IMG/VR virus record: IMGVR_UViG_3300029349_000003
Location: 13,341-51,155 of that record
Direction: 5' to 3' (one strand)
Length of the DNA stretch: 37,815 bases
From: a virus
Shown: positions 3,340 through 33,718 of the stretch, one piece after another
How positions within the stretch are numbered: position 1 is the first letter of the stretch
How the letters are laid out: the number at the start of each line of letters is the position of its first letter
Notes under the pieces: generated by a model
The model's database searches: none
What the model was told of the DNA's origin: nothing
What the model saw: only the letters and a program-made list of their open reading frames with translations
Program-made: the position numbers and the translations under genes

Positions 3340-6108
3340 ATGACATCTATTAGCGACTGCCTACCTAATCTACCAACCGTAACTTCACTGACTAATAGTC
3401 AGTCAATTGTAGTATTAAGAGTAATTAATGGGGAACTAAGACCTGCACTTGCATCAGTAGGAACTGTAAGACCTAGTAGTGCCACTGACTCTGTACTAGG
3501 TATTATCAGATTAACTGGTGACCTAGCAGGTACAGCAGAAGCTCCTACTGTACCTGGGTTAGCACTTAAGGCTAACATTAACTCACCTATCTTAACTGGC
3601 ACACCTACAGCACCTACTCCAAGTAGTAATGATAACTCAACTAAGATAGCAACTACTGCTCATGTTAAGGGAGCAATTGAAATTACTCCCCTAAGTGGAT
3701 TAGCAGATACACTTATCACTAACCCTGCTAATGGTCAGGTATTAGCCTGGAACGGAGTTAACTGGGTTAACCAGATGGTAGCAGGAACTGGGGATCTACT
3801 ATCAACTAATAATCTAAGTGATGTTAGTAATAAACAGGTAGCCCTTAATAATCTAATTAACGGTAGTAATAATATATTTACTACTGGCGCTATACGTTGG
3901 AATACTAATTACAATACTATAGTTGACTTACCTAGTGCAGCTACATATCGTGGTATGTTTGCAGTAGCAGGTACTACACCTTATTACTCTACTGGTACTG
4001 CATGGGTTAATCTTAATACTAATATTACTACGTTATCTAGCCTACTAGATGTTAATCTTAGTAACCTAGCACCTAACTTAAATAATCAAGTGCTAGGTTA
4101 TGATATTGCTACAAGTAGATGGATAGCACGTACACTACCACCTACACCACCAGTTAATACGTTTACTAATCTAGGTGCTCTAACTGACGTTAATCTAATT
4201 GGGTTTAACCCATTGCTGAGTAACCAGGTGCTAGGGTATGATACTGTTCAGAATAAGTGGGTAGCTCGTACTGTAACTACTGGAGGTGGCGGGCCAGTTA
4301 CACTTGGCCTGGCAGGTCTAACTGACGTTAATGTAGCTACACTAGATACTAATTTACCTCATCAGGTATTAGGATATGATCACGTACAGGATAAGTGGAT
4401 TCCTAGAGTTATTACACCACCTACCACATCACCAGCACCTGGCCCTGATCAATTAAGTGAACTACTAGATGTTAACCTAAGTACTCTTAATACAGGTGTA
4501 AGTGGTCAGATACTATCTTATAACCCAACCCAGAATAAGTGGGTTCCATTAATTCCACCTACTGTTAATGTCATAAGTGTATTATCTGGTTTAAGTGATG
4601 TTAATCTCACTCAATTAAATACTTCCTTACCTGGGCAGTATCTATCATATAATACTGTTCAGAATAAATGGATAGCTGCAACACTACCAGTACAGACTAG
4701 CATTACATCAACGTCAGACCTACCAGAGGGTAATAACCTCTATTATACTAATGCTAGGGCTGACGCTCGTGTAACTCCTATAGTTAATACACTACCATTA
4801 TCCGCCCTAGCTGATGTAACTAATGAAAGTCCTACAACAGGAATGGTATTAACCTGGACTGGTACTGCATGGGCCCCCGCTGTCATACCTACGTCAGGTG
4901 GTGGAGGTGGAGGCGGGGGTGGAACTGTACCACTACCTCTTACATCTAAGGGGGATATATTAACCTATAGTACAGAAATAGATAAAATATCTGCTGGTGC
5001 TAATGGTTATTTCTTAATGTCTGATAGTGGCACACCGACTGGTCTAGTGTGGTCTCAACCTACCTTAAACCAATTATCTGATGTTGATACCAGTGTTGCA
5101 AATGATAATGAAGTATTAACTAAAATAGGTAATAGCTGGATACCGCGCCCCGTTGTTAGTAATCTTAATAGCCTATCTGACGTTGCTATAGTAACACCTA
5201 CTGATGGTCAGACAATTATATATGATCAGGGTGGGTGGGTTAATGCAAGGTACTCAATTAGTAATCTTGCTGAAGTTAATATCAATGCCCCTGATCTTAA
5301 TGATAGATCAATCTTAGGCTGGTCAACCTCTACATCTAAGTGGGAACTTAAGAATATACCTACAACCACATCTCATATAACTGAGGGTAGTAACCTATAC
5401 TATACTAATGCAAGAGTTTCAACTCAAGTAGGTACATTAAGTATTGATGCTCTAGCAGATGTAACTATTACTTCACCACAGCCAAATCAATACTTAGTTA
5501 GGAATGCTCAAGGTCAATGGGCTAACCAAACTACACCTTTTTCACAATTTATATCAAAGGGAGATCTATTAGTATTTACTGGTACAGATTTTGTTAGATT
5601 ACCACTGGGTAATGAGGGACAAGCTCTAACTGTAGAGACAACAGCCCCTGCTGGTCTTGCTTGGAGAGCCGCAGGTGTTAATCCATCATTAAATAGCTTA
5701 TCTGATACTAATATAACCTTTCCTCTTAATGATTGGTCAGTATTAGCATATAATCCTGCTAGTGGTAAGTGGGTGGATAAGGACTTCTCTAATCAAGTTG
5801 CAATAGAACGTCAGGTTATACTTATTGGCCAGCCTATATTCTTAACGTTAAATAGTCCTGGTAACCAGCACCTTGATCCACTATTTAGTTCTGATCCTAA
5901 TACACCTGAAACCTATATCCGAGAGGTATATTTACCAAGTAACCCAACTATAGGTACAAGGTTTCGTATATTAAATCTTAAGCAGAACTACACTATTAAT
6001 GTACGATCTCAAATTGGTAACGTTGTTATACTCGCTCTAGGTAGCACTACTGCTACATACCAAGCAGAGTTTACATGGGATGGTGTTGGCTGGTACTACT
6101 GGGGGTAG
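3340..6108 (+). CDS. Repeat-built tail fibre protein 1
   Basis: A 922-residue fibre subunit, presumably a trimeric receptor-binding or fibre-shaft protein. It carries about a dozen degenerate units of the form L-x-x-L-x-D-V ... G-Q-V-L-x-Y/W ... K-W-I/V, for example LSGLSDVNLTQL with LSYNTVQNKWIAA, spaced about 45-60 residues apart from about residue 120 to 850. Two inserts carry the EGxNLYYTNAR motif (about 465 and 685) that is common in phage fibres. A nine-glycine linker at about residues 520-528 (bases 4897-4923) makes a flexible hinge. The N-terminus (about 40-110) with TGTPTAPTP and TKIATTAHVKGAI resembles the segment common in tail-collar and fibre proteins. The C-terminal 80 residues lack repeats and may form the tip. 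No ribosome site is obvious before ATG 3340. Confidence 0.88.
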   Translation: MTSISDCLPNLPTVTSLTNSQSIVVLRVINGELRPALASVGTVRPSSATDSVLGIIRLTGDLAGTAEAPTVPGLALKANINSPILTGTPTAPTPSSNDNSTKIATTAHVKGAIEITPLSGLADTLITNPANGQVLAWNGVNWVNQMVAGTGDLLSTNNLSDVSNKQVALNNLINGSNNIFTTGAIRWNTNYNTIVDLPSAATYRGMFAVAGTTPYYSTGTAWVNLNTNITTLSSLLDVNLSNLAPNLNNQVLGYDIATSRWIARTLPPTPPVNTFTNLGALTDVNLIGFNPLLSNQVLGYDTVQNKWVARTVTTGGGGPVTLGLAGLTDVNVATLDTNLPHQVLGYDHVQDKWIPRVITPPTTSPAPGPDQLSELLDVNLSTLNTGVSGQILSYNPTQNKWVPLIPPTVNVISVLSGLSDVNLTQLNTSLPGQYLSYNTVQNKWIAATLPVQTSITSTSDLPEGNNLYYTNARADARVTPIVNTLPLSALADVTNESPTTGMVLTWTGTAWAPAVIPTSGGGGGGGGGTVPLPLTSKGDILTYSTEIDKISAGANGYFLMSDSGTPTGLVWSQPTLNQLSDVDTSVANDNEVLTKIGNSWIPRPVVSNLNSLSDVAIVTPTDGQTIIYDQGGWVNARYSISNLAEVNINAPDLNDRSILGWSTSTSKWELKNIPTTTSHITEGSNLYYTNARVSTQVGTLSIDALADVTITSPQPNQYLVRNAQGQWANQTTPFSQFISKGDLLVFTGTDFVRLPLGNEGQALTVETTAPAGLAWRAAGVNPSLNSLSDTNITFPLNDWSVLAYNPASGKWVDKDFSNQVAIERQVILIGQPIFLTLNSPGNQHLDPLFSSDPNTPETYIREVYLPSNPTIGTRFRILNLKQNYTINVRSQIGNVVILALGSTTATYQAEFTWDGVGWYYWG

Positions 6109-6111: not shown

Positions 6112-8904
6112 ATGACAAAGCAAGTTGGTGAGTGGTTACCAGTTATAGATGTAGGAGGGGCGCGGACTAACTTAATATTCCGCCATCCTATTAATGAATT
6201 ACTTGACGTACAAGTACAGAATCCACTTGAGGGTCAAGTATTAGCTTGGGATGCAGATAATGGTTACTTTGAACCTCGTGGTAGTAATGGAGGTGGTGTA
6301 TCATCTCTATATGCCCTACTGGAAGTATCAATTAATCCTAATACCTTATCTAATAATGCTGTACTTACTTATGATCTAGCTAATAATGTATGGATAGCTA
6401 GTCCAGTTAATATAGCTAATACAATAGCTGAACTTGATGATGTAGCTACTGATATACCACTTCTTAATGGACATATTCTAATTTGGGATTCTAGTATATC
6501 TAAGTGGGAACCTGGGTTTCTTAATGCAGTTGCCTCCATTAATGGTAAAACAGGACAGGTTAATCTAGTTACAAATGATATTCCAGAGTCACCAGGTAGG
6601 TTATTTCTATCTGCTGGTAATCTTAATAATTTATTATCTCAAACATCTATAAATGGTCTATCAGATGTATCTACAAGTGGTTCCTTAAATAACCAAGTAT
6701 TAACATATAATGGTTCAATATGGGTTCCGCGATCAATTGGTTCTATATTTTCATTACGTCTAGAAGACTTAAATAATGTATTTGCACCAACACCTGCTAA
6801 TGGTCAGGTACTTGCGTGGAGCACTGCTAGTAATAGGTGGCAATTATCTTCACCTATTGCTTTTAGTTCAACTGACGATATACCTGAAGGTTCAAATAAT
6901 CTATACTTTACTGAAACCAGGTTAAATACTTTACTATCAAATACTAAAGCTAGTATATTACAAGATGTTAATTATTCTAGTCCATCAGTAGGTCAAGTAT
7001 TAACTTGGAATGGTACTGCATGGGTTAATTCAATTGCAGGAGCAGGTAATACTGATCAACTTCCTGAAGGAAGTAGTAATTTATATTTTACTAATCAGAG
7101 AGTTGCTAACTTTCTAGCAACTACAAGTATAAGTTTCTTATCTGATGTAAGGTATCCTAATACACCGCAAGGTGGACAGGTATTAAGTTGGAATGCAACT
7201 GTAAATAGATGGGAACCTGCAACTATATTAACTTCTCTTACGAATACTGATAGTGTACCAGAAGGAGCAGTTAATAAGTATTTTTTAAACTCAAGAGTTG
7301 ATGCTCGTCTCAACCAAGTATCAATTAATTTACTACAGGATGTAGATACAGTAACTAATCCCCCATTAACTGGGCAGTCATTAGTATGGGATGCAACTAC
7401 AGGTAAGTGGCAGCCAGATGATACTACTGGTGCTACAATTCCATTTGTATTTACTCAAGAAGGAGATACAAATGGTCTAATAAGTTATTTAGGTACTAAG
7501 GGTAATTCATCTACCTTTATTACGCCAACTGGTTTATTTTATCCCTGGTTAGTTACTACTACTCAATCTAGTAACCTAACTGGAGATTCTCCATCTAATG
7601 CTGTTGATCGTAACAATAGCACTATTATTCATACTGCAGGAGTAGAGGACTCATGGTGGAAATTAGATTTAGGAAAAAATAAATCATTTAAGCCAACTAA
7701 ATATACCTTAAGAACTCGTAGTGATACTAACGATAATAATCCAGAGGCTTGGAAATTACAAGGCAGTAACGATGACGTTAACTGGGTTGATATTAGTATT
7801 GAATCTACTTCATTAACTATAGCGAGTTGGTTTGTATCTCAAGATATTAATGCAGTTGAATCATATAGGTATTTTCGTATTTTTCAAAACGGTGTTAACA
7901 CCAGTAATGAGTTATTTCTAGTATTTGCTGGTATTGAATTATATGGTCTATTAAATATAACTGGTGTAACTGCTTCTATTGAGACTACAGATAATTTAAT
8001 AGAAGGTAATATCAATAAGTATTATTCAAACACTAGAGTTAGTTCCTTTCTTTCTACTCAGTCCATTAATATTCTTGGTGATGTAAATGTTATTAATCCA
8101 ATAAGTGGCGCGGCTCTAGTATGGGTTTCTAATCAATGGACGGCCTCTACTAAGAGTCTAGAATCTCTTAAACTAACTGATCTAACAGACGTAAGTGTAG
8201 TATCTACTCCATCTAATAATGATGTTCTAGCCTATGATACAACTACTAATAAATGGAAAGCTAAGACATTTGTACAAGGTGGATTAACCTCAATTAATGA
8301 TTTACCAGATGTTGATACTGCTACAGTTACTCCTAGTGTAAATAATGTATTACTATGGAATGGGTTCTCATGGATACCAGGTAATGCTCCTCAGAGTGTT
8401 CTTAGTGTTAATGGATTAATAGGGGCTGTATCATTAAACGCAGATAATATAAATGAGACAGGTAGTAGGTTTTATTTTACTCGTAATAGATTATTAACTG
8501 AACTACAAACTACATCTATAAAAGAACTATCTGATGTAAGTAATACTCAACCATCAAATGGTCAGGTATTAGTTTGGTCTAATAATCAATGGACTCCACA
8601 ATCTGTAAGTAGTGGAGGTGGTGGTTTATTAGCTGATACTATTAGTACCAGTGGTAATGTTAATGGTAATACGTGGTATGCCTCTACAGGTAACATTATA
8701 GCTACACTACCAATAGGTGTATCAGGTATGGTTATTGCTTTTACGTTATTAAGTGGTAACTTAGATATAAGAGCAGCATCTGGTAATACTATTGGATTAC
8801 CTACTGGAGACGATAACTCATTAATACTAGACATAGTTGGTCAGAGTGTCACCCTTACATTTAATAATAAATGGTACGTAACTGGAGGTGTCATACGTGG
8901 TTAA
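6112..8904 (+). CDS. Repeat-built tail fibre protein 2 with F5/8 type C domain
   Basis: A 930-residue paralogue-like fibre, built from the same L-x-D-V ... GQVLxWN ... W units (about 12) as the preceding gene, with several EGxxNLYFTxxR inserts and two SxNGxxGxVxL segments. At about residues 450-617 the array is interrupted by a discoidin-like (F5/8 type C) domain: SPSNAVDRNNST, then WWKLDLGKNK, WKLQGSNDDVNWVDI and YRYFRIFQNG, ending in FAGIELYGLL. These are the usual landmarks of that carbohydrate- or lipid-binding jelly roll. The C-terminus (GGGGLLADTISTSGN onward) is a repeat-free tip. ATG 6112 follows the previous stop by 3 bases, with a G-rich ribosome site (GGGGG) just upstream. Likely role: host-surface glycan binding. 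Specificity cannot be read from the sequence. Confidence 0.88.
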   Translation: MTKQVGEWLPVIDVGGARTNLIFRHPINELLDVQVQNPLEGQVLAWDADNGYFEPRGSNGGGVSSLYALLEVSINPNTLSNNAVLTYDLANNVWIASPVNIANTIAELDDVATDIPLLNGHILIWDSSISKWEPGFLNAVASINGKTGQVNLVTNDIPESPGRLFLSAGNLNNLLSQTSINGLSDVSTSGSLNNQVLTYNGSIWVPRSIGSIFSLRLEDLNNVFAPTPANGQVLAWSTASNRWQLSSPIAFSSTDDIPEGSNNLYFTETRLNTLLSNTKASILQDVNYSSPSVGQVLTWNGTAWVNSIAGAGNTDQLPEGSSNLYFTNQRVANFLATTSISFLSDVRYPNTPQGGQVLSWNATVNRWEPATILTSLTNTDSVPEGAVNKYFLNSRVDARLNQVSINLLQDVDTVTNPPLTGQSLVWDATTGKWQPDDTTGATIPFVFTQEGDTNGLISYLGTKGNSSTFITPTGLFYPWLVTTTQSSNLTGDSPSNAVDRNNSTIIHTAGVEDSWWKLDLGKNKSFKPTKYTLRTRSDTNDNNPEAWKLQGSNDDVNWVDISIESTSLTIASWFVSQDINAVESYRYFRIFQNGVNTSNELFLVFAGIELYGLLNITGVTASIETTDNLIEGNINKYYSNTRVSSFLSTQSINILGDVNVINPISGAALVWVSNQWTASTKSLESLKLTDLTDVSVVSTPSNNDVLAYDTTTNKWKAKTFVQGGLTSINDLPDVDTATVTPSVNNVLLWNGFSWIPGNAPQSVLSVNGLIGAVSLNADNINETGSRFYFTRNRLLTELQTTSIKELSDVSNTQPSNGQVLVWSNNQWTPQSVSSGGGGLLADTISTSGNVNGNTWYASTGNIIATLPIGVSGMVIAFTLLSGNLDIRAASGNTIGLPTGDDNSLILDIVGQSVTLTFNNKWYVTGGVIRG
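8884..8888 (+). promoter_or_regulatory. Ribosome binding site deciding the oxidoreductase start
   Basis: GGAGG lies 8 bases before GTG 8897 but directly touches the upstream in-frame GTG at 8888, so 8897 is the usable start. The same GGAGG plus 9-base spacing precedes other genes of this operon (1032 and 14514). Confidence 0.75.
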
Positions 8905-9922
8905 GATTAACATAATTGGATTAGGCCCACGTGGATTAGCTGTTGCACTATATGCACTTAGTAGAGGTATAGAAGTAAGAGCATATGACCCCCAGCCATT
9001 ACATGAGTGGAGTAATGCAGTTATACCTGACCTAAGAATGCGTAGTCCAATTACATTTGACCTAGCTACCTATCTAGATGAAGATTATACACTAGCTAAT
9101 TATCTAGGTACTACTACTATTACAAATACACAACAGGATATAGAAGCAGATAATAGGAGGTGTGATAGGTCCACCTTTGAGAAGTATCTTCAGCACTGCC
9201 TATCTCTTGCTATTAAACAAGGATTAGATTTAATACCAGAGAAAGTACTAAAGGTAAATCCAGATGAGCACACTGTAATAGCAACAGGAGATAGATTAGG
9301 ATATAGATTACCTACATGGTTAATCCATAGCGAAGTATATCCCTTATCGTATTATCTACAAATAAATATACAATCACATAGAATATTGGTTGTAGGTAGT
9401 GGTCAAGGAGCAGCAGAAGCAGTGGCGCACCTTAGTCTGAATAATCAGGTTATATGGAGTAAGAAGAAGAGTATTATAGATGAGTATCCTGCGCCTTCCT
9501 ATAGACACTGGAAGGGGTTATCTGCACTTGGCCCATACTATCGTAGTCTATCATCTGATTCATCTAGATTGCGATACCTACAGAGGGTTAAGGCATGGGG
9601 TCCATCTATAACTCCACATATAGCATCTATATTATCTGAGCGTAACTTCTCTACTATTGATGTTATACGTAGTAGTAGCGATATACCTGACGTTGATTAC
9701 ATATGTGTAGCGACAGGTTATAAACCAATACTAGGAGTTGATGTAGAGTACACTTCTCACCTAATGGGGCTACCCAAGATAAAAAGTGGATTCCGCCTTA
9801 ATAATAAGACCTATGTAACAGGCCCGGCCGCTATTCTATATGATGGACCACGACAAAACTCACTTATTAGTGCAGGTATAACCGCAAGAGACATTATTAA
9901 CCAGGTAACATATGCCAACTAA
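8897..9922 (+). CDS. FAD/NAD(P)-binding oxidoreductase (N-hydroxylase-like)
   Basis: A 341-residue flavoprotein with two dinucleotide-binding sites. The N-terminal FAD site is INIIGLGPRGLAVALYAL (GxGxxG at residues 8-13). The second, probably NAD(P)H, site is ILVVGSGQGAAEAVAHL (GSGQGA at 167-172). An ATG-type motif (CVATGYKP) lies near residue 275. The block DLRMRSPITFDLATYL and the later CDRSTFEKYLQ resemble SidA/IucD-type lysine or ornithine N-monooxygenases and related bacterial flavin enzymes. Substrate is unknown. It overlaps the fibre gene by 8 bases and the next structural gene by 11, so it is translated as part of the tail operon. Composition matches its neighbours. It may be a virion component or an auxiliary metabolic enzyme; the sequence does not decide. 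Confidence 0.82.
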   Translation: MVKINIIGLGPRGLAVALYALSRGIEVRAYDPQPLHEWSNAVIPDLRMRSPITFDLATYLDEDYTLANYLGTTTITNTQQDIEADNRRCDRSTFEKYLQHCLSLAIKQGLDLIPEKVLKVNPDEHTVIATGDRLGYRLPTWLIHSEVYPLSYYLQINIQSHRILVVGSGQGAAEAVAHLSLNNQVIWSKKKSIIDEYPAPSYRHWKGLSALGPYYRSLSSDSSRLRYLQRVKAWGPSITPHIASILSERNFSTIDVIRSSSDIPDVDYICVATGYKPILGVDVEYTSHLMGLPKIKSGFRLNNKTYVTGPAAILYDGPRQNSLISAGITARDIINQVTYAN

Positions 9923-21425: not shown

Positions 21426-22180
21426 TGCAAACTCTATCTAGTCTTTTAGCAAGGCGCGCCCCTATTCTACTAACTATACCTAACCTGGATAGTATTCTAG
21501 ACCTTAGATCAATATCAGCATTAATTAGCACTACTAGACCTGTCATTCTATTAACCCTTGATAATCCATATATAGTATTTGATGATGGAGATATAGAAAT
21601 AACGGCCCCTTGCCCATATATAGTTAGAGATTACATGGGTAATACTATCCATGTAGGTAAGGATTGGGGGTTTGGTCTTAATAATACGGATAGAGCTTTA
21701 TTAGCCTCAGTAGTACCTAATTCTATTGAGCCATTTCATATTGAATATGAATACAATAATAATCCTCGTAGTATTCTAGTTTTATTTTACTCTGCTAATC
21801 GGGCTATACCGAGCGTAGAAGCCGCGCCTAAGTTAATAAATATAGTACCTACTATACTTATTAATTCAAGTCAACCATTTGAACTATCTTATTTAGAGAG
21901 TGCACCTAACCTAGCATTATCAAGTATAGAAGACCATCCACGTGCAGTTAACTATGTATATGATGAAATCTACTCTAGTGTATTATTATATCCAAGTACA
22001 TCTATATATCTAGAAATAAACCGCCCTGCTACCTGCAGTAGTCCGCGTTGGTTAGTACAGGGTTCTATATACTACGTAGCAGTTGATGGTCCTACTAATG
22101 CTCTATTAACTATATCTCCTAACCTTAATATTAATGCTTATAAGAACGCGCCCTTAACATTGGAGGTGAATCTTGGTTAA
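21425..22180 (+). CDS. Unrecognised protein upstream of terL
   Basis: A 251-residue protein. ATG 21425 sits in a TAATG junction, the same arrangement as at 10466, so the longer reading from GTG 21341 is unlikely. The sequence has a Leu/Ile-rich N-terminus (LSSLLARRAPILLTIPNLDS), a central aromatic region (HIEYEYNNNP) and a C-terminal beta-like stretch. A GGAGG near its end (22162-22166) serves the terminase gene. No family recognised; structural by context. Confidence 0.5.
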   Translation: MQTLSSLLARRAPILLTIPNLDSILDLRSISALISTTRPVILLTLDNPYIVFDDGDIEITAPCPYIVRDYMGNTIHVGKDWGFGLNNTDRALLASVVPNSIEPFHIEYEYNNNPRSILVLFYSANRAIPSVEAAPKLINIVPTILINSSQPFELSYLESAPNLALSSIEDHPRAVNYVYDEIYSSVLLYPSTSIYLEINRPATCSSPRWLVQGSIYYVAVDGPTNALLTISPNLNINAYKNAPLTLEVNLG

Positions 22181-23969
22181 GAAGAATACATTTGATATAA
22201 ATAACTTATTTGCAGATATAGCCAATAAGGGATTAATGGGGGTATCTAAGGCGGCCCCTGCTGGTGTAGTTGAATTTGCTGAGGAATATCTTCTTAATGG
22301 AGAAGAGAAACTATACACTACACAGCGTGCATGGTTGAAGTCATTCTATAATGAACCTCTCAATAGTGATGAGCGTAGTGTCATGCAACGTTGGGCCTCT
22401 GAAAATCGTACAACATGGGTTGAGGGTAGAAGATACTCATCTATGGCTCTAGAGATAGGAAGAGGTGGTTCTAAATCCACTATGGGTTCTATATGTGCTC
22501 TATATGAATTTTATAAACTTATATCATTAGATAACCCATCTAAACACTACAAGCTCTTTACTAATTCACCTATTGCTATATTTGTTATAGCGCGCTCTAT
22601 GGATCAAGTAAAGAATACTCTATTTGGTGCAATTAAGGGTTATGCAGAGAATAGTCAATACTTTAAATCACTAGCTGATGCAGGTATTATATCTATTCAG
22701 GAGATGAGTATTAAGTGTAGATCTAAAAATATAGCTATATTTCCTCAACATACTAACTCACCTTCCTTAGTAGGTTATAACCTTAAATTATTAATATTAG
22801 ATGAGGCCGCCCGCTTTGGTTATGATGACACAGGATACTCACTTGGTGACCTAATATGGGATAACGTTGGTGCTGGTACTAAACGCTTTGGTAATGAGGG
22901 CAGGAAGATAGCTATATCATCTGCATGGGAACCAGGTGATTTTATTGAAAACCTATATTCATTATCTCAGAGGGATCAAAGATTACTAGGAGGCCGCTTC
23001 CGTACCTGGGATATGAATCTTAATCCAGAAGTGGGCGAGAGTGTACTTAAATCAGATACTGATTATATTAAGAATCCAATTAAGGCCTCTCTTGAATATG
23101 AGGGTATGCGTTTTAATAAACAAGATGCTTATTTGACAAGTCATAGTATTCAATTAGCTATGAGGGGTTATAGTGTTGTAGATGCAAGACCAGAGGTATT
23201 AAATATATCTAATGCCGAAGGTGATACTAGACACTACGTAGGAGTTAATATATCTAGAATAGAACAACTATATAAGGGATATAGTTATGTACATACTGAT
23301 TATGGTATTAAGAAAGACTCAGCAGCTACAGCTATTGTACGCGCTGAAGTAATAGAAGGTGTACCTAGTGTTATTGTAGATAGTATATTAGTATGGAAAC
23401 CTTACATTGATAAGGATGAACATAATCAGGCAATTTCTCGTGTTGTTTCTTTCATAGATGTAGAAGAAAAGTTAATTCAATTATGTAAGTTAAGAAGAGT
23501 ATCCCTATGCTCTTTTGATACATATCAGAGTCAAAGTACAATACAACGACTCCATATGCTAGATATACGCACTAAAGAAATGGGTGTATCTAATGCCCTA
23601 CAGTTAAGATACTATGCCCTAACTAAGAATCTGCTAGATAGCGGTCGTTTAATATTACCGAAAGACTCCTCATGGTCTCCTACTCTACAGCAAGAATTAT
23701 CTCAACTGATACAGAGGTCTAATGGTAGAATAGACCATCCACGTAATGGATCGAAGGATATAGCAGATGCCGTAGTTAACGCTGTATTTAACTGTGTAAA
23801 CTCCAATGCTTATATACTAGATAGTAAAGGAAATCCCTTATCTAGTAGTGTTAAGGTAATAGAAGGTGGAACTCTACAACGTAATAAAGATAAATTAACT
23901 GGCCTACGTAAGCTCACAAATAACCGTTCCGCCGTGAATAAACTGAGAAATACAAATACCGGGATGTAG
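22173..23969 (+). CDS. terL: Terminase large subunit
   Basis: Packages DNA into the prohead. The 598-residue product has an ATPase domain with Walker A GRGGSKST (residues 96-103), Walker B LKLLILDE (Asp210, Glu211) and the coupling motif AISSAWE (about 247-253). The C-terminal RNase H-like nuclease has candidate acidic residues in HTDYG (Asp376), SFDTYQSQ (Asp449) and SKDIADAV (Asp529/Asp532). Length is normal for TerL. The start is TTG 22173, with GGAGG 6 bases upstream, overlapping the previous gene by 8 bases. Its last codons and stop are also the first ten bases of tRNA-Pro. Lying inside a tail-gene operon rather than beside portal and capsid genes is a little unusual; no portal or small subunit is adjacent. 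Confidence 0.95.
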   Translation: MVKKNTFDINNLFADIANKGLMGVSKAAPAGVVEFAEEYLLNGEEKLYTTQRAWLKSFYNEPLNSDERSVMQRWASENRTTWVEGRRYSSMALEIGRGGSKSTMGSICALYEFYKLISLDNPSKHYKLFTNSPIAIFVIARSMDQVKNTLFGAIKGYAENSQYFKSLADAGIISIQEMSIKCRSKNIAIFPQHTNSPSLVGYNLKLLILDEAARFGYDDTGYSLGDLIWDNVGAGTKRFGNEGRKIAISSAWEPGDFIENLYSLSQRDQRLLGGRFRTWDMNLNPEVGESVLKSDTDYIKNPIKASLEYEGMRFNKQDAYLTSHSIQLAMRGYSVVDARPEVLNISNAEGDTRHYVGVNISRIEQLYKGYSYVHTDYGIKKDSAATAIVRAEVIEGVPSVIVDSILVWKPYIDKDEHNQAISRVVSFIDVEEKLIQLCKLRRVSLCSFDTYQSQSTIQRLHMLDIRTKEMGVSNALQLRYYALTKNLLDSGRLILPKDSSWSPTLQQELSQLIQRSNGRIDHPRNGSKDIADAVVNAVFNCVNSNAYILDSKGNPLSSSVKVIEGGTLQRNKDKLTGLRKLTNNRSAVNKLRNTNTGM

Positions 23970-24031
23970 CGCAGAGGTAGCGCGCCTGCTTTGGGAGCAG
24001 GATGTCGCAGGTTCAATTCCTGCCATCCCGA
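23960..24031 (+). tRNA. tRNA-Pro (anticodon TGG)
   Basis: A complete cloverleaf reads directly: acceptor CGGGATG (23960-23966) pairs with CATCCCG (24024-24030); D stem GCGC/GCGC around AGAGGTA; anticodon stem CCTGC/GCAGG around TTTGGGA, with anticodon TGG at 23992-23994; a 5-base variable loop; T stem GCAGG/CCTGC around TTCAATT; discriminator A at 24031. No CCA is encoded. The anticodon reads CCA and, by wobble, other proline codons; CCA and CCT codons are common in the surrounding genes. The first 10 bases overlap the end of terL. Confidence 0.95.
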
Positions 24032-24089: not shown

Positions 24090-24461
24090 ATGCGCGCAAT
24101 TAGACAAGACCTAGTTGAAAACCTTGCTATAGAAAAAGGTTCTCTATGGGATCAGATGACTATACTAATTAAAGGTGATTATACATCTTTAAGTTGTAGA
24201 GGACAAATAAGGGATGAAGAAGATGGAGAGTTATATGCTAACTTTCAATTTGAACCACTTATAACGGTTATTAGAGATGGGGAAGTTTATACTAGAGTTC
24301 GACCCTATCTAGGAGCTACGAGAACTAAGTCATTACCCACGACTAAACCTCGGCAGTTCTTGAAGTATGATATTGAGTTATTTGATGCTCTTAACCTAGA
24401 TATTGTATATAGGTTAGCGTTAGGTGACGTAGAAGTAAGCCTAAACATAACTCTCCCATGA
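24090..24461 (+). CDS. Small tail-type protein preceding the collagen-like gene
   Basis: A 123-residue protein with a layout seen in many phage and prophage proteins that precede collagen-like or fibre genes: [18 protein letters not shown], then [18 protein letters not shown] (about residues 38-55), a proline-containing segment, [11 protein letters not shown] (about 92-102) and a final [16 protein letters not shown]. The pattern 'R.qIR....g.l.a.f.f ... YDiel ... v.Rll.G.v.v...vT' is familiar, and it probably forms a small beta domain that anchors the following protein. Start is ATG 24090, without a clear ribosome site. It ends in an ATGA overlap with the collagen-like gene. The domain assignment is by resemblance. 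Confidence 0.65.
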
Positions 24462-24775
24462 TTACACTTATTATTGACGACTATAATCAAGAGGTGGTAG
24501 TTACGCCACCTTCTGATCTAACATACATACTACCTGCTGATCCTTATGTATATATACAAGGTCCACCCGGTTCTCAAGGTGAGCCGGGTGTAGAAGGTCC
24601 TCCTGGCCCTGCTGGTGAAGTAGGACCTCAAGGTGAACCGGGGCCTGCTGGGGAGCAAGGAATACCTGGTTTTCAGGGTGAGCCTGGTGTAGAAGGTCCT
24701 GTTGGTGAGATAGGACCTCAAGGCCCAGCAGGACCTGCTGGTGAGGTAGGTCCGCAACTCATAAGTGGGCGCTGA
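24458..24775 (+). CDS. Collagen-like tail protein, frame interrupted near its 3' end
   Basis: Residues about 31-98 are uninterrupted Gly-X-Y triplets ([20 protein letters not shown] and so on, about 22 triplets), which form a trimeric collagen-like shaft. The N-terminal 30 residues are an anchoring segment. In the zero frame the protein stops at 24775 after an abrupt LISGR. In the -1 frame, from ACT 24757 onward, an open frame reads a fibre-like segment and stops at TAA 24835-24837, exactly forming a TAATG junction with the next gene. That is the arrangement used elsewhere in this operon, so the intended protein probably runs from 24458 to 24837. Insertion of one A (CAA|CTC to CAA|ACT) would restore it. 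Confidence 0.8.
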
Positions 24776-24837
24776 CTGCCAACTTGCTTCTCGCGCATCC
24801 TTTTAAAAATCGTCCACCTTTAGTAACGGATGTATAA
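24757..24837 (+). other. Out-of-frame C-terminal segment of the collagen-like protein
   Basis: This 26-codon frame begins directly where the collagen frame is at CAA 24755-24757. It encodes [16 protein letters not shown], then NRPPLVTDV and TAA. The pattern 'TH.W ... HpF..rP.LVTDV' resembles the tail segment that follows Gly-X-Y repeats in many phage fibres. It is separated from the collagen frame by a -1 (or +2) shift. No classical slippery heptamer is visible at the junction. Confidence 0.65.
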
Positions 24838-25433
24838 TGATTTATCTATATTATAATTTTAAGTTAGCTACTAATGCTACAGATAGCTGGAAGTATTATA
24901 TTAAAGTATTACCACCTAAAACGACTAATACTATACCTGCTCTATCTGATAGGTTATATTTACAAAATGGACACCTACGCCTATGGGTAGAGCCATCTAA
25001 GGTAGGAGCAGACTTTCCTATTTGGGATACGTATAATAACTACCCTACCTTGCGTTTAGATAATGCGTATAAAGTTGACTTATATAGGTGGAAAGAAGCA
25101 ATTAATATACCAGGTAAACGTACGTCTAGAAAGGCAGATGATGAACTTATAACTACATATTACTGGGTAGTACTTCCAATCTTTCCACAGGTAAGTAGTA
25201 TCACCTTACCTGTTGTAGAAGGTGTAGTTGACTTAAAAGCTCATCCTACTGTATTTGATATAAATAAGGTAACTGCTGATCAAGTTGATATACAATACAC
25301 TTTTGTAGATAATGCTATGGCTACACCTAATAAGTCATATCGTCACCGTATCCTAGTTAATGAAGAGATAAGTGAGGTAAGTATTGAGTATAATCAGCCT
25401 ACCCTACCTATACAACTGTGCTTACCTTACTAG
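24837..25433 (+). CDS. Unrecognised protein between collagen-like and giant genes
   Basis: A 198-residue protein starting at ATG in a TAATG junction. Aromatic residues are abundant (IYLYYNFKL, YLQNGHLRLWVEP, YYWVVLPIFP), and the order of short strands suggests a beta-sandwich virion protein. The C-terminal part ends in a run of hydrophobic strands (SIEYNQPTLPIQLCLPY). It overlaps the giant gene by 16 bases. No family recognised. By position it may link the collagen-like fibre to the giant protein. Confidence 0.5.
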   Translation: MIYLYYNFKLATNATDSWKYYIKVLPPKTTNTIPALSDRLYLQNGHLRLWVEPSKVGADFPIWDTYNNYPTLRLDNAYKVDLYRWKEAINIPGKRTSRKADDELITTYYWVVLPIFPQVSSITLPVVEGVVDLKAHPTVFDINKVTADQVDIQYTFVDNAMATPNKSYRHRILVNEEISEVSIEYNQPTLPIQLCLPY

Positions 25434-28400
25434 AGCAATTAAGTCAAGATAGAGCCGCGCCTAGAGCTACAGAAGGGCGCGAACGTTCATTTGGGTTCTA
25501 TAGTATAGAGTCACTAGAGAAGACTGTATCTAACCTAGATAATCCTCTTGTCACTCAGTTCTCATTTGATGATATTCAGGTAGAGAGCAATATATATGGT
25601 GAGGCTGATGTTCTAGAACAATATAATGTTCCAGTCTTAACTGACTATACCATTAATAAAGATAAATATAATATTCTTAGAGAGTCAGGTCTAAACGTAT
25701 CCCCCTATATGGCCGAGAAGAGTCCTGATAATATAAGATTACTTCACTCTAAATTAATATCTGGTACTAGAGAGGGGCGTGGTATTGCTAGAATTGATAG
25801 TAGTATGTTTGGTACTACTAGAGTGAAAGGAGATAGTTTATCTTCTAGTAACGAGTCTGTTGATATATACTATGAGAGTTCTAACCCTACATTATATAAA
25901 GAGGTTAGGCAGCATCAAGAGGCTCTTACTAGAAACGAGTTAGTAGTTGGTTTCTCAGGTGAGTACTTAAAGACAGGTAATGCTATATTTGATAGTCTAT
26001 ACACTGATCTTCTTAAGGCGCAAGGTGATGTAGCAATAGTAAGTGCAGGTATAAACGCACCTAATGAGAAACCTAGCTTTAGTGATATAGATGTAGCTAA
26101 TGCTAGTAAACAGCAATTAATTATTAATAAGCTAATTGAAAGATCTGGTGAAGGTAAGGTAAATATATTAGCTGCTTCTGAGAGTGACCTTGCTAAGACC
26201 AAACTAGATGAACAGCTTCAACAAGCTGGTAGTATTATTGGTATTGCGAAGGGTAAAAATCCTCACTACAACATATTTTATTTAGAAGATATAGATGATA
26301 AGGGAACTGACGTAGCTTATTTTGGTACTAGACGGTTTACTCCTGGTTCACATGAGGAGTCAATGATACGTCTAACCAGTAAGGATGATGCAGAGTTTCT
26401 TGACTTCCTTAAGTTAGCAATAGCTAATGATTATAATTTTAATCCAGAAGCCGCGCTACTTGCTTATAAGGGATATACAAATACAAATCTTATAGCATCT
26501 ACAAGCGGTGATGTAGTTACTCAGCTACCTAGTAATCTAGGCCCTAGTTACTTCCACTCTATAGCAAGAGATAATACTGCACGTGAGTGGAACCCATCTA
26601 CGTCATTTAGTAGCTATGTAAATAGACCAGGTATAGCCACCTATAATTATCTAATGAATAATCAAGGAGCTACATCAGTACCAGGTCAAATTAAAGATTA
26701 TGATGTAGCATTAATGACTCCAGGTTGGGGGTCTATTATTAATGAGTACTTCATGTCACATGGCATGGGTAGAATATATAAGAGTGAACTAGGGGCGCTG
26801 CCATCTGCAACTGGATTAATAGGTGCATTATTAGATCGTACGTTAACTTATTATGGTGGTTTTCTGGAACATGATCCATATAGGGTAAAACCTATAAATC
26901 AAGAACCTAAACCAGGTATGTATGAGTCGGCACTTAGTAATATAACCTCATTTGCTATTACTACTGGTATTGCATTAACCACTTACTTCTCTATAGGGAT
27001 ACCAGCTTCCTTTATTACTTCTGAACTAACACGATTAGGTTTAGAAGAACAACTGAATAATGCTCTAAGTGCTACTGATAAGAGAACTAGATTAGCATCT
27101 TCAGTATTATCACTAGGATACGGCGACCCAGATAATCTAGATAACTATATAACTACATGGAAGCAGAAACATAATATTTCAACTAGCTTCTTACAGGGTT
27201 ACTATGAAGAGCACTTTAGCTTACCTTTCATCAATAACCTCCTGTATAGAGAAAGAGGAGGTATATTCTTTGATAAGGTAACGCAGCCGTTCTTACTTGG
27301 AGTAGTAGATCCATATGAACCATCATCGGAGCTATCAATTAAATATAGAGATTCAATAGATAGTTTATCTAGAACTATTCGCTCTCCTATTGGATTAATG
27401 GAAGTAAGAGAGGAAGGAGTATTAAAACGGCTAATACCAACTAATGTAGGTTTTAATAGACAGAAGGAAATAGCTAAGTTAGTTGATGAAGTAGGTTCAT
27501 ATGTGCCTATTAATATCTTTTGTTGGGGTTGGGGTAATGGTAAAGCTAGGGCACGTGACTTTATATCAGTAGCTGAAGTATTCTCATTTACTGATATTGT
27601 TAATACATTTAATCAGGTAGTAGGGGCTAGTAGTCGTAGTGCAATGAGCTTATCTGCTGCATCAGAAGTAACTGTAGGTGGTATGTCAGGTTTAGTACAG
27701 AGAGCAGGTAATATAATTAGTGCTGTAACTCGTGCTACATGGACAAGAATACGCACGGGTAATAACCTATCATTCATACTAGGTGATAGTGAAGTTAACA
27801 TAGCAAGTGAACGCCTACGCCTTAAGAAGTTAGAGAATCAGATGTTAGCGGAGGGCTTACTATATTGGGATCCATCTGATGGTGGTAGTCGAATGATAGG
27901 TAATATATCTGGTAATGCAGAGGAGATGGCTAGGAAGCAGGACCTAACGCGTCGCTTTATTAATCAGTTAGTTGTGTATAATGAAGCAATTGAGGGTACA
28001 ACTGGTTATAGAGAGGCGGTGCAACGTGCGACAGAATATACAGCATCGCAAGCTAATCTATTTAATCAACTAGCTGCACGTAATTCTAGATTTCTTAGTA
28101 ATTGGTTTCATCGTAGTAAGAGTTCAATTGGAACTACATTTTTTGTAGCACTTAACGTTCATGCAGGACTTACTAGCATACTAGATGCTAGTGGCCCCAG
28201 CCTTATTCGTACTATTGGAATGCAGCTGAGGAATGATGTAGATGATCCTCGATTCAATACACGTAATGTACTGTTAGAAGGTAGTCTAGCCACTGCAGGT
28301 TACGTAGCATTTTCATTTGCAGCGGGGTATGCTGCTTCACATCTATTTGGTTCTCTTACTTATGAACGATATAGAGTAGATACTAATATGATAGCTGCGG

Positions 28401-31400
28401 GTAAGATGGCATCTCTAACTCCTGAAGCAGCTAACCTTATGAATAGAGGTGTGCTTAGGGTCAGAGGTAAACAGTTATTTGCAGCATCAGCTGTTACGTT
28501 TGCCTTATTAAGTTTACCACGGTTAATAACTACTGTAGGTAATACAGTATTTAACGCTCTTAATAGGTTAACTGGTACAGAGGGGCACGTATTAACTGAA
28601 AACTATGGGTTTGTAGCATCTCTAGAACAATATCGTCAGAGTGTATTAGAAAGAGTACAAACTGGTCAGCTACCAGAGGATGTAACAGATAGATCATTAG
28701 AGGTATGGGCGGCCTTCAGTGCAGGACAATTAGTATCACCTATGTCTATCTATCGTAATATTAATACCTCTGGTTCAGTTAAAGTATATGCTTCTCAAGC
28801 ACCTCTTAATTGGTTACAGTTCTTTGCAGCAGAGACTATTCAGAAGAAGACTGCTAGTCAGAAGGGAGTAGTTAGTTACTCTGTAGGGATACAGGCCGCG
28901 CCTGTACTTGGCTTTTCTATATCACTTGGGTTACCTATTTCATATGACCTAGATAGAAATACTATTGTCTATAATCAGGAAAATAATAATATTATTAATT
29001 CTCTTAGAGCTCTAGGAGATATAGGTAACGCGTCTATTCTTGCATTTGGAACTATAGCTGGTTTTATGAACCTAGCTCCTTATGCTATGCGTTTAATTAA
29101 GAGAGATAGTTCATATATTGACTCAGGTGCTAAATCAGTTACTAATGAGCTTGTTACTATAGCACGTACAATTGACACCATAGGGGGTAACTTAGGTTCT
29201 ATACCAGTGGCTGGTGCTCGTATATTTAAAGCTACATTTTATGATACTCATCTATCTGTACTTAAGGCCACAACTAGAATAGTGCGAGCTAGGAGATCTA
29301 AAATGGACTTTGCAGAGGTTCTACTAGGGGGTGCTGGTATAGCGTTAGTTGGTATCCTTACTAATCAGATTAAGTATCTATTTGATCCTACGGAACAGTT
29401 TAGTTATACTCCTATTGATATAGCTTTAGCACTTGGAGGTGGTATAGCAGGGGCTGTGCTATACACTAGCTTATTACCTCCTGCATGGAAAGAGAGTGTA
29501 GATAAAATAGGTGGTCGTATTATAAAAAGTTTCTCTACTAAGGAATTATCTATAGCAAAGGGGGCCTTTAGTCGTATAAGATTACCACGTTATCCCTTCT
29601 TAATAGCAGGTCTAAGCGCCTTAGCTATGACTACTACTGGTTGGGGTATAAGTGAAGGTATGGACGCTGACCCATTACAGAGACTAGGGACAATTGGATT
29701 ATATACTCTAGCTGTAGGTGGGGCGGCCGTTGCACTAGGTGATATAGGATTAGACCCTATTAGCACTGTAGAGAAGTATCGCAGGATTAAGCAGCGCGGT
29801 CTTAATATGAGCGAGCATAATCCACTGAGGTTTCTACAGAAGATAAGAGAGGCTCAACTAGAGGGTGATATAAGATCTGACTTTAAATCTCTATCTAATT
29901 ACACACGTGAGTATCTTAATAATCGTTCTCAATACCATAGCTTCCAGTTACTAAGAGATAATCTAGCAGATGAGAATAATCTAAAGGCCTTCAATGAAGC
30001 TATAAATGAGTTTAACTTACGTAGTAATGATGTAAGTAATATATTTGACTATGCAGATGGTAAGGTAAGGTTAAATAAGACAGGTCTATCGGCGGTGCAC
30101 CTGCTAGATAATAGGGATTATCTACGTTGGCGTAATGCTAGACTTGAGGGCCCGGCTGGTCGTCGATTATTCAGAGCAGCTATGAGTTATGGTGTTGTAG
30201 CTGCTGCTGCTTCAGCTGTAATGATAGGAGCAGGCTGGTTATTTGGTGCAGGTGATGATAACGCTGCAGTTGATAGATTCTATGGAGCTATAGATGGTAC
30301 TCCATTTCAGTTCATATCTGATACCTTCCGTTTATTAACTGGTAAGGATGTTAATGTAGCTACTAACTCCATTGAACCTATGTTAGTTCAGATGGACGGC
30401 ACTATAAAGCGACGACGCGGCGTTAGACTTATAGCTCCTATGGATCAGCAAGTTAATTCCATAACCCGTGCTATAGGTGACTTATCTAATGCTATGGTAT
30501 TCAATGCTACTAACCCATTTTTATCTGTTCTTATATTTGGTACAAGTATCAGAGAGGGGGAAATGGGTACTAGATTCTCAGGTTATATTCAGTTTCAAAG
30601 TGCTAACCAGGATTTTAATGCTGCTATATACTCAACTAATTTTTCATTCTTATATAGATTAGCGGGTAGAGGTAGAATAGCCGCCGCATGGTCAAGAGTT
30701 AATAGACAAGGACGTATTAATGATGCCACATATCGTAATATAACTGATGATCAACGCCGCTTCCTAGCATTATCTATAGTAAGTCTAGCTAATCAGTTAG
30801 AACCATTATCTGATAAAAACAGAAGACGTATATCTACTCCTGTATCTAAAAAGGCATTGGCTCTCTATCGTTCAGATTCATTAATGAATATAGCTCTATC
30901 TGAAAGATTAAAGGATATACGACGATTTTCCTATAGATCCCTAGAGTCACTAATGATGGAGAATACTGACCTGAGTAATCCTCAGAATATAGGATTAAAG
31001 GATGGCGGTACATCTCCCTTAGCTCTATTATTTCCTAATCTTTCTAAAACAGATCGTACATTAATAGAGAATGGTAACTTCTCATCTTTATCATCTTACT
31101 TAAGTAACCCTCTTAATGGCATAAAAATTGATAATACTATTCGTATAGTTAATAGTAAGGCAAGAGGTTACGTAGGTACAGCAGAAACAGGTGATTGGGT
31201 TGACGCTACAAGAGGGTCTCTTGCTCCTCCTAAGTTAGCTAATCCACTATCAGATATGTATCAGACTATGTATCATTTAATGTCTAAGATACCAATTATA
31301 GGTAGTTCTAATATAGCTATTATGCTTGGTATAACTACTGCAATGATGGTAGGAGGATTATACACCTTTAATGCTATATCGGCATATACAGGTAGGGCCT

Positions 31401-33718
31401 CTGGTTCATCTATAGATAAGGTTGTAACTACACTACGTCACTTCTGGGATGATAGCTCTAGACCTGACTTCTATGTTGCAAATGTAGGTACAAATGCACC
31501 TACCTATGAAATTAAACGTGGGCGCTTTACTTATTCTATTAGACCTGATGGTTTAGACTTAGCTTCGTCAAATAACTTTGCTCAGGCATTAAGTAACTTC
31601 CTTAATGTTGATTTTAAAATGACAGCTAAGGATCATATGTCTAAGTTAATTAGTAACGTATATGATAATCCATTAATGAACATAGATGACTACTATGATC
31701 GTAATGCGCTTGTGAGAGATGTAAAAGCTGGTATGAAATTAGAAGTTGATACCATGCTAGATGGATTATTTAGTAAATTAAGACAAACAATTATATCTGA
31801 TAATTATTCTAAGCCTGCATACCATGCTATAGGATTAGATGAAGAGTTACTTACTAATATTGAACAATCCTATAGAAAGAAGGTAGCAGAGGTTATTGAG
31901 AGTACGTTAGAACGAGAAATTGTAGGTGAGATTAAGGGAGATCGTATAGCTCGCCGCTTTGCTAACTTAGGTAGGTCAGAACAAATAAGATTAATTGCAG
32001 GGTCAGTATTAAATGAATTAACTCCTATATTTCAACAAGTGAAGGAGAAGGCCCTTATACTTGATATAGTTAGTGCAGACCCAGCTATGATTAACCAACG
32101 TGATACTGCCCTAATGAACTGGGTTAAATCACTAGGTGGTATTGTAGATATTAACAGAACTGAAAAGGCCAGATGGAGAAATATAGTACGTTGGAATGAA
32201 GGTAAGATACAGTTACCTGCTCTAAGTAAGGAGGTATCTACCTACTCATTCTTCAGTAATGTTAGAGCTACACGTTGGGATACACTAGGTACTATATGGA
32301 ATGTTGCTGGTTCAGCTATGACTGTAGTTGAGTCTATAGATATAGGTGGGGCATATGTAAGACTAGGGGCCGCCCAGCGTAATGATCTATATTCTGAAGC
32401 TGAACGTGAGATGCTAGAGGAGTATGCTGGTATGGTTACTAGACAATCTGCAACTGGTATAGCAATTGGATGGGGTGTATCACATACTATTTCTAAGCTA
32501 GGTTCAGGTGCGATGTCACTTGCTTCTAAGACAGGAACTAAGGGCGGTAAGATAGGTATATTAATAGGCCTAGCTGCATTAGCTGTTGCAGGTGCAGTAT
32601 TTAGTATTAAGGCACTGCAGGGTGCAATGGATAACCCAGGTGTTAAGAATTTCCTTGATAAGAGTGATCAGTTCTTCTCTACTGTAGATAAAGGTATAGG
32701 TAATGTATTAGGTGATGTTATACCTGGATTACTTAGCTTTGGTAATAATGAGGTGAAGGGGTTTCTAACTGGTCTAATGGGTGGACTACTAATGGGGGCC
32801 ACCCTACTAGGCGGGGTTAAGGCTTGGTTTGGTAAGATGGTCACATGGGGTATTCTAGGTAGAGGGGCAGTTGCAGGTGCTACTGCTATTGGTCTTACTA
32901 CTATACATCCAGATGCCCATCAGGGTATAGCGCGGTTAAGTGGCTCTTACCTTGATTATGTATCTAAGATGGTTGGTGTAGGTGACTTCCTAGTAACACC
33001 TATGGATAGACTACTACAGCGCTATAAGACAGGTCCAGATGGGTTTCAGTTAGCTCTACCTAATCGTTCATTCCAGGCTAATGCTGAGATGTGGTATGAG
33101 GCATCTAATGATCCATCTGGTTCCTCAACTGCATCTATATTAATTAGTCCATTAGTAGATGGAGGTGGAACTGGAAGAGAACCTAAGCGTGTTATTGATA
33201 ATCTAGATGCCTTAACTACCAGAGAAATAAAGAGAAGAAGCCGCGACTTCAACTCAGATGTATTTGGACTTAGTAACTGGCTTAAGGCCGTACGTGGTTC
33301 TAATAATTGGAGTAAGTATAAGACCTTTGCTTATGATAAGATAACTGGTAAGTATATAAGTAACATTAAGGCTATACGTAATCAGGAGCAGGTAGTAGTA
33401 TTAGCATTACCTGATACAGCCGCCCTAGCTCGTGCAGTTAGTCAGGTAGCGAGAGTACCTAGACCTATGGAGGCACAGAAGGTAGCTATTGTACCTAAGC
33501 AGCAGTTTAATCCGGCACTACATGAACAAGTAGTTAATAATGCACGTCAACTTGGTTCTCTAACTCTCATAAGTAAGGTTACTAAGTCAAGTGCAAATAA
33601 AGAAGCAGCTGTAATCACAACTGCTCCTGATACTGATAATGCTATGTGGGCCACCCTCCTACATGATAAGGTTAGTGTTAAGGAACTAGCACAACGCGGC
33701 TATAGCCTAGTAACCTAG
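25418..33718 (+). CDS. Giant virion protein with N-terminal phospholipase-D-like tandem fold
   Basis: A 2766-residue protein. Residues about 80-330 read as two PLD-type halves. The first has LLHSKLISGT (His110, Lys112), IDSSMFGTTRV (126-136) and SSSNESVDIYY. The second has FDSLYTDLLKAQGDVAIVSA, a helix and 'GKVNILAA' strand, HYNIFYLED (His283, Asn285), then VAYFGTRRFTPGS and EESMIRL. The second HxK is HxN, so catalysis is uncertain. The rest carries about 13 hydrophobic segments (near residues 506, 954, 1019, 1206, 1302, 1335, 1394, 1427, 1590, 1966, 2379, 2447 and 2481) between long helical parts. This suits a tape-measure or DNA-ejection protein. The start is GTG 25418, without a clear ribosome site. 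It is the last gene of the plus unit. The enzymatic reading is an inference from motifs. Confidence 0.8.
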   Translation: MLTLLEQLSQDRAAPRATEGRERSFGFYSIESLEKTVSNLDNPLVTQFSFDDIQVESNIYGEADVLEQYNVPVLTDYTINKDKYNILRESGLNVSPYMAEKSPDNIRLLHSKLISGTREGRGIARIDSSMFGTTRVKGDSLSSSNESVDIYYESSNPTLYKEVRQHQEALTRNELVVGFSGEYLKTGNAIFDSLYTDLLKAQGDVAIVSAGINAPNEKPSFSDIDVANASKQQLIINKLIERSGEGKVNILAASESDLAKTKLDEQLQQAGSIIGIAKGKNPHYNIFYLEDIDDKGTDVAYFGTRRFTPGSHEESMIRLTSKDDAEFLDFLKLAIANDYNFNPEAALLAYKGYTNTNLIASTSGDVVTQLPSNLGPSYFHSIARDNTAREWNPSTSFSSYVNRPGIATYNYLMNNQGATSVPGQIKDYDVALMTPGWGSIINEYFMSHGMGRIYKSELGALPSATGLIGALLDRTLTYYGGFLEHDPYRVKPINQEPKPGMYESALSNITSFAITTGIALTTYFSIGIPASFITSELTRLGLEEQLNNALSATDKRTRLASSVLSLGYGDPDNLDNYITTWKQKHNISTSFLQGYYEEHFSLPFINNLLYRERGGIFFDKVTQPFLLGVVDPYEPSSELSIKYRDSIDSLSRTIRSPIGLMEVREEGVLKRLIPTNVGFNRQKEIAKLVDEVGSYVPINIFCWGWGNGKARARDFISVAEVFSFTDIVNTFNQVVGASSRSAMSLSAASEVTVGGMSGLVQRAGNIISAVTRATWTRIRTGNNLSFILGDSEVNIASERLRLKKLENQMLAEGLLYWDPSDGGSRMIGNISGNAEEMARKQDLTRRFINQLVVYNEAIEGTTGYREAVQRATEYTASQANLFNQLAARNSRFLSNWFHRSKSSIGTTFFVALNVHAGLTSILDASGPSLIRTIGMQLRNDVDDPRFNTRNVLLEGSLATAGYVAFSFAAGYAASHLFGSLTYERYRVDTNMIAAGKMASLTPEAANLMNRGVLRVRGKQLFAASAVTFALLSLPRLITTVGNTVFNALNRLTGTEGHVLTENYGFVASLEQYRQSVLERVQTGQLPEDVTDRSLEVWAAFSAGQLVSPMSIYRNINTSGSVKVYASQAPLNWLQFFAAETIQKKTASQKGVVSYSVGIQAAPVLGFSISLGLPISYDLDRNTIVYNQENNNIINSLRALGDIGNASILAFGTIAGFMNLAPYAMRLIKRDSSYIDSGAKSVTNELVTIARTIDTIGGNLGSIPVAGARIFKATFYDTHLSVLKATTRIVRARRSKMDFAEVLLGGAGIALVGILTNQIKYLFDPTEQFSYTPIDIALALGGGIAGAVLYTSLLPPAWKESVDKIGGRIIKSFSTKELSIAKGAFSRIRLPRYPFLIAGLSALAMTTTGWGISEGMDADPLQRLGTIGLYTLAVGGAAVALGDIGLDPISTVEKYRRIKQRGLNMSEHNPLRFLQKIREAQLEGDIRSDFKSLSNYTREYLNNRSQYHSFQLLRDNLADENNLKAFNEAINEFNLRSNDVSNIFDYADGKVRLNKTGLSAVHLLDNRDYLRWRNARLEGPAGRRLFRAAMSYGVVAAAASAVMIGAGWLFGAGDDNAAVDRFYGAIDGTPFQFISDTFRLLTGKDVNVATNSIEPMLVQMDGTIKRRRGVRLIAPMDQQVNSITRAIGDLSNAMVFNATNPFLSVLIFGTSIREGEMGTRFSGYIQFQSANQDFNAAIYSTNFSFLYRLAGRGRIAAAWSRVNRQGRINDATYRNITDDQRRFLALSIVSLANQLEPLSDKNRRRISTPVSKKALALYRSDSLMNIALSERLKDIRRFSYRSLESLMMENTDLSNPQNIGLKDGGTSPLALLFPNLSKTDRTLIENGNFSSLSSYLSNPLNGIKIDNTIRIVNSKARGYVGTAETGDWVDATRGSLAPPKLANPLSDMYQTMYHLMSKIPIIGSSNIAIMLGITTAMMVGGLYTFNAISAYTGRASGSSIDKVVTTLRHFWDDSSRPDFYVANVGTNAPTYEIKRGRFTYSIRPDGLDLASSNNFAQALSNFLNVDFKMTAKDHMSKLISNVYDNPLMNIDDYYDRNALVRDVKAGMKLEVDTMLDGLFSKLRQTIISDNYSKPAYHAIGLDEELLTNIEQSYRKKVAEVIESTLEREIVGEIKGDRIARRFANLGRSEQIRLIAGSVLNELTPIFQQVKEKALILDIVSADPAMINQRDTALMNWVKSLGGIVDINRTEKARWRNIVRWNEGKIQLPALSKEVSTYSFFSNVRATRWDTLGTIWNVAGSAMTVVESIDIGGAYVRLGAAQRNDLYSEAEREMLEEYAGMVTRQSATGIAIGWGVSHTISKLGSGAMSLASKTGTKGGKIGILIGLAALAVAGAVFSIKALQGAMDNPGVKNFLDKSDQFFSTVDKGIGNVLGDVIPGLLSFGNNEVKGFLTGLMGGLLMGATLLGGVKAWFGKMVTWGILGRGAVAGATAIGLTTIHPDAHQGIARLSGSYLDYVSKMVGVGDFLVTPMDRLLQRYKTGPDGFQLALPNRSFQANAEMWYEASNDPSGSSTASILISPLVDGGGTGREPKRVIDNLDALTTREIKRRSRDFNSDVFGLSNWLKAVRGSNNWSKYKTFAYDKITGKYISNIKAIRNQEQVVVLALPDTAALARAVSQVARVPRPMEAQKVAIVPKQQFNPALHEQVVNNARQLGSLTLISKVTKSSANKEAAVITTAPDTDNAMWATLLHDKVSVKELAQRGYSLVT

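Follow-up and report, generated by a model that had tools for sequence, protein, structure and literature searches.

The window analysed here is a 37,815-nt stretch of the IMG/VR record IMGVR_UViG_3300029349_000003, which is itself a 51-kb virus fragment; all coordinates refer to the window unless another contig is named. The gene set of the record resembles those of Microcystis phage Ma-LMM01 and related Fukuivirus phages. The features that define the locus are:

22173..23969, plus strand: large terminase subunit (TerL), 54% identical to Ma-LMM01 gp118, marking the synteny to the left of the giant gene
24837..25433, plus strand: upstream partner gene, 198 amino acid residues, homologue of Ma-LMM01 gp119, with a 16-base overlap with the giant gene
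25418..33718, plus strand: giant protein gene, GTG start, 2766 residues, homologue of Ma-LMM01 gp120
26489..33715, plus strand: conserved body of the giant protein, residues 358-2766, common to relatives that have another nuclease in front

The 2766-residue protein and gp120 are 36% identical across 98% of the length (a global alignment of the two gives 38% identical columns), and their N-terminal parts are 28% identical (E 5e-20). The giant protein matches phrog_29513 with 1784 bits, and a neighbouring PD-(D/E)XK nuclease is 45% identical to its Ma-LMM01 counterpart. Both full-length similarity and a common gene neighbourhood place the protein in the gp120 family, for which the only annotation of gp120 is hypothetical protein and that of PHROG family 29513 is function unknown. 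The Fukuivirus orthologues (YP_851134.1, UWV19772.1, AGR48684.1; phrog_29513) share the full-length homology, the neighbourhood and an HSK...HYN domain, and differ in having a two-helix hydrophobic insert within this domain and a longer N-terminus.

Several other features of the region were recorded. A tRNA-Pro (TGG) gene at 23960-24031 (plus strand, Rfam 73.4 bits) shares 10 bases with the end of the terminase ORF. Two ORFs, one at 24090-24461 and one for a collagen-like protein of 105 residues at 24458-24775 (plus strand, 63 bits), sit between the terminase and partner genes; no counterpart of either is annotated at the corresponding place in Ma-LMM01. Two adjacent fibre-like ORFs (3340-6108 and 6112-8904, plus strand) contain repeats of the type LxDVN...NGQVLxWD...KW. 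A gene resembling FAD-dependent lysine/ornithine monooxygenases (8888-9922, plus strand) lies within the structural gene cluster, and Ma-LMM01 has the same gene as gp106.

The giant body as a tape-measure candidate

The giant protein has a single cysteine and about eight predicted membrane-length hydrophobic segments, every one of them in the body. No Pfam domain was found in the body, and no known tape-measure family matched it, the only match being phrog_29513. Between the tube and hub genes no tape measure was recognised. Given the large body, the membrane-length segments, the single cysteine and the lack of another recognised tape measure, we regard a tape-measure or pilot protein as the most likely identity of the body. 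Our search found no proteomic support for the giant protein in the virion; we nevertheless consider it to be probably virion-borne.

Ma-LMM01 also encodes a second giant protein, gp80 (contig L044, 101-10789, minus strand; 3562 residues, no Pfam match), which is an alternative tape-measure candidate. On another contig (L042, 4957-6621, plus strand) we observed a baseplate spike-like protein, the C-terminal part of which appears by eye to have a serine beta-lactamase-type fold.

Phospholipase D-like features of residues 58-345

The region in front of the body contains the following features, all on the plus strand:

25589..26452, plus strand: phospholipase D (PLD)-like domain, residues 58-345
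25589..25930, plus strand: PLD-like half 1, residues 58-171, with a profile match at residues 77-117 (score 22)
25745..25753, plus strand: motif 1, H110-S-K112, with Thr117 in the usual place of Asp
25811..25816, plus strand: G132-T133 turn after the first motif strand, just beyond which the Ma-LMM01 clade has its two-helix hydrophobic insert
25931..26452, plus strand: PLD-like half 2, residues 172-345, with a profile match at residues 185-311 (score 30.3)
26264..26272, plus strand: motif 2, H283-Y-N285, with Asn for Lys and with Glu290 in the usual place of Asp, both conserved
26324..26329, plus strand: G303-T304, part of GTRRF, which lies where conservation within the domain is highest; these residues match the G-S/T of PLD in the alignment

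The HSK and HYN motifs are 173 residues apart. After each of them comes a hydrophobic strand containing Gly-Thr (132-133 and 303-304), and after that an acidic strand (D149-E153 and E313-E314); this is the arrangement that the original prediction had described with a spacing of about 170 residues. Both tripeptides are invariant in all ten aligned sequences, nine of which belong to one close clade. Just four of 26 histidines (110, 283, 1507 and 2501) are kept between the 2766-residue protein and gp120 in the global alignment, and no other HxK or HxN tripeptide is conserved between the two proteins; for this reason, the motif pair appears to be more than a product of chance. The best-conserved stretch of the domain, IDDKGTDVAYFGTRRF, comes soon after HYN, and the next best are ESMIRLTSKDD and LLHSKLISGTRE.

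A catalytic-type histidine is present in each half, H110 and H283 being invariant in all aligned relatives. A lysine is found only in the first motif: the predicted change from Lys to Asn in half 2 was confirmed, and the HSK and HYN pair is kept in this form across the clade. The Asp of HxKx4D is absent from both halves (Thr117 and Glu290) in every sequence of the clade formed by the 2766-residue protein and Ma-LMM01. By the strict signature, residues 58-345 are, as far as their sequence tells, not a canonical HKD enzyme, and their activity could be lost or altered. The main rival to an enzymatic role builds on these substitutions: a decayed PLD fold that no longer catalyses a reaction may serve as a DNA-binding or assembly module, for example by holding the end of the genome at the neck. 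The replacement of HxK by HxN and the loss of both motif Asp residues throughout the clade favour such a module, whereas the retention of both catalytic-type histidines and Lys112, when most other histidines are not retained, speaks against it; on all the evidence, including that given below, we regard it as rather unlikely.

Within the corresponding domain of gp120, residues 186-228 (contig L001, 20268-20396) form two membrane-length hydrophobic segments that are absent from the 2766-residue protein.

No PLD (PLDc) call for residues 58-345 was obtained from Pfam, NCBIfam or PADLOC. By BLAST-type scoring, pairwise similarity of this region to a Microcoleus phage PLD domain (see below) was at chance level, and a profile made from few PLD sequences likewise gave no link. 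A PLD-half profile was constructed from 21 halves of 11 proteins outside the giant-protein family (E. coli ClsA, ClsB and ClsC and eight proteins from phage-collection records) and compared with sliding windows over the whole alignment of the 2766-residue protein and gp120. The top score (30.3, single-comparison E 1.9e-4) fell on half 2, and the next best distinct region (score 22) was in half 1, with HSK on the HxK columns. The other 151 windows had a mean of 13.0, a standard deviation of 2.4 and a maximum of 19.7, and the highest scores after column shuffling were 20.8 for half 2 and 16.2 for half 1. In the half 2 alignment GTRRF falls on the G-S-x-N turn of the profile; H283 does not lie exactly on the motif histidine column, probably because the following loop is longer in the 2766-residue protein. 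When the 2766-residue sequence was used alone and compared with 185 control windows taken from other proteins, half 2 scored above 184 of them, and half 1 was not distinctive.

Two AlphaFold2 runs yielded models of low confidence (pLDDT 32-36) because there are too few diverse relatives; the order of strands and helices in them is as the motif pattern predicts. For half 2 the predicted order is helix, strand, helix, strand, helix, strand, strand with the His, strand with the GT, strand with the Glu, and helix, which we take to be that of a PLD half. In a Foldseek search with this low-confidence model, PLD3/PLD4 appeared about ten times among the top 50 matches, with E values of 0.04 or worse, none of them significant. 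The tandem PLD-like fold originally proposed is therefore supported by the profile, clearly for half 2 and more weakly for half 1, and is not carried by the predicted structures or by Foldseek at these values.

A different alpha/beta fold, in which the two histidine motifs are coincidental, would agree with the lack of any PLD call in the family libraries, with the poor AlphaFold models and with a weak match to GDSL lipases (E 0.03-0.05, well under the cut-off). We consider such a fold quite improbable, since the PLD profile score lies far over both the internal background and the shuffles, and PLD3/PLD4 recur, although not significantly, among the top Foldseek matches. The GDSL lipase reading itself was rejected: the match is below threshold and covers no GDS block.

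Residues 58-345 resemble the PLD (HKD) superfamily, which includes cardiolipin synthases, DrmC and PLD3/PLD4, in their probable two halves, the His in each, the predicted order of strands and helices and the profile similarity, and depart from it in the HxN of the second motif, the missing motif Asp and the lack of a library match. PLD ancestry of this region is probable on this evidence. It is likely a derived PLD-like domain that keeps both histidines.

Nuclease domains in front of the body in relatives

Searches of IMG/VR for relatives of the giant protein brought the number of lineages to five in all; no relatives of the body were found in a bacterial and archaeal genome collection. The body is common to the distant relatives and begins at about residue 358 of the 2766-residue protein. 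All five lineages have homologous TerL and PD-(D/E)XK genes in the neighbourhood of the giant gene, so the giant proteins are probably true orthologues. The terminase ORF of the lineage L040 (2729-7747, plus strand; 1672 residues) is broken by intein/LAGLIDADG endonuclease sequence, apparently by more than one insertion.

In Microcoleus phage My-WqHQDG, protein WOL31340.1 has a homologous body and, directly before it, a domain that Pfam assigns to PLDc_2 (38.7 bits, cut-off 27) and that resembles DrmC and cardiolipin synthase. This protein differs from ours in that its PLD domain is recognised by Pfam and has no significant pairwise similarity to residues 58-345, and in its size (4151 residues, with a long glycine-rich N-terminal stretch). 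The metagenomic relatives L024 and L025 have a staphylococcal nuclease (SNase) domain at the same place (47 bits as scored on L024, cut-off 21), and so does L040, a third and more distant lineage (28.9 bits, cut-off 21). The SNase residues DxDT, R...D-(A/S)-P-E and (F/Y)-G-R are visible in both the L024/L025 and the L040 versions.

The Microcoleus and L024 proteins have identities of 70% for the body and 82% for a 22-residue N-terminal leader; the domain between leader and body is PLD in the former and SNase in the latter. An assembly error is an unlikely cause, because the giant proteins of L024 and L025, two contigs of separate metagenome records, agree in length and start. In a tree of the bodies, the PLD-bearing Microcoleus protein groups with the SNase-bearing L024, the SNase-bearing L040 stands on a long separate branch, and the 2766-residue protein groups with Ma-LMM01. 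The tree is out of step with nuclease type, which implies at least one change of type and probably two.

Because relatives with the same body carry either PLD or SNase at this position, the N-terminus of the giant protein is, on comparative grounds, an exchangeable phosphodiesterase slot. This bears out, indirectly but strongly, the earlier suggestion of a phosphodiesterase or nuclease role for this position. It also counts against the decayed module discussed above, as relatives have enzymes with visible active-site residues at the corresponding position. A further alternative is an enzyme of membrane phospholipids, aiding passage of DNA through the cell envelope by transphosphatidylation or lipid hydrolysis. 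The membrane-length segments of the body, the hydrophobic hairpin that the Ma-LMM01 clade has within the domain and the likeness of the Microcoleus domain to cardiolipin synthases (members of the same superfamily) as well as to DrmC would suit such an enzyme; yet a close relative of the Microcoleus protein has SNase in place of PLD, and SNase is a nuclease for which we know of no lipid activity. A lipid enzyme is accordingly the least probable of these readings, and we give it very little weight.

Proposed role and comparison with known systems

On balance we lean towards a derived PLD-type phosphodiesterase that occupies the exchangeable nuclease slot of a giant tape-measure-like or pilot-like protein and is delivered with the genome; its location, delivery, activity and substrate are what we infer. 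The giant body would sit in the tail or neck and leave together with the genome. In phage 80alpha the tail completion protein binds the DNA end, and the N-terminus of the tape measure is located directly beneath it, in the neck (PMC11661146). By analogy, the N-terminal enzyme may start beside the genome end and exit with it, although the same proximity to a DNA-end-binding protein would also suit a decayed module that holds the genome end. The substrate of the enzyme would then be nucleic acid met where the genome enters or a little way into the cell, such as DNA or RNA of the host or of a competitor. With HxN in this lineage, the activity of residues 58-345 is possibly reduced, restricted or changed.

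During Ma-LMM01 infection only 0.17% of host genes show a significant change in expression (PMC5780444). Host transcripts that remain nearly unchanged are in keeping with a decayed, non-catalytic module, and they argue against wholesale destruction of the host chromosome by an active injected nuclease. For the PLD-type phosphodiesterase that we favour, more fitting targets than the host chromosome are DNA of rival phages or plasmids, RNA, or the end of the phage's own DNA.

The swapping of two unrelated nuclease folds at a fixed site of a giant, virion-type protein would point to some phages bringing an enzyme that cuts DNA or RNA into the cell along with their genome; such a nuclease could most obviously be turned on rival phages, on plasmids or on the nucleic acid of the host. 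This offers a functional hypothesis, directly testable in cultured Ma-LMM01 and MaMV-DC, for a gene that is among the largest unannotated ones of Microcystis phages. More tentatively, and with somewhat less confidence than in the reading of our own protein, the family as a whole may be one of tape-measure or pilot proteins with an exchangeable N-terminal nuclease warhead (PLD or SNase) that the virion would carry and deliver as the genome enters; they would be the phage equivalent of polymorphic toxins and Sle1-type effectors.

The enzymes known to be fused to tape-measure or pilot proteins are mainly cell-wall hydrolases. The original prediction did not recognise the fusion as a described phage system, and the literature searched, mostly without subscription journals, likewise yielded no paper on the giant protein or on PLD or SNase fused to a phage tape measure. 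Polyvalent proteins are also very large and multidomain and are thought to enter with phage DNA; PLD and SNase are not named in the text describing them (PMC5512222). They have several enzymatic-type domains per chain, whereas at most one was found per giant protein, the body of which has no Pfam domain. The nearest described idea to the nuclease-slot protein is that of the Sle1-type effectors of contractile injection systems, which are tape-measure-related and have functional domains that vary between species, one of them presumably acting on nucleic acids (PMC13277306). Like them, the phage protein joins a variable functional domain to a large carrier that is probably related to tape measures; the Sle1-type effectors differ in belonging to a bacterial injection particle rather than to a phage and in having the variable part at the C-terminus (PMC13277306).
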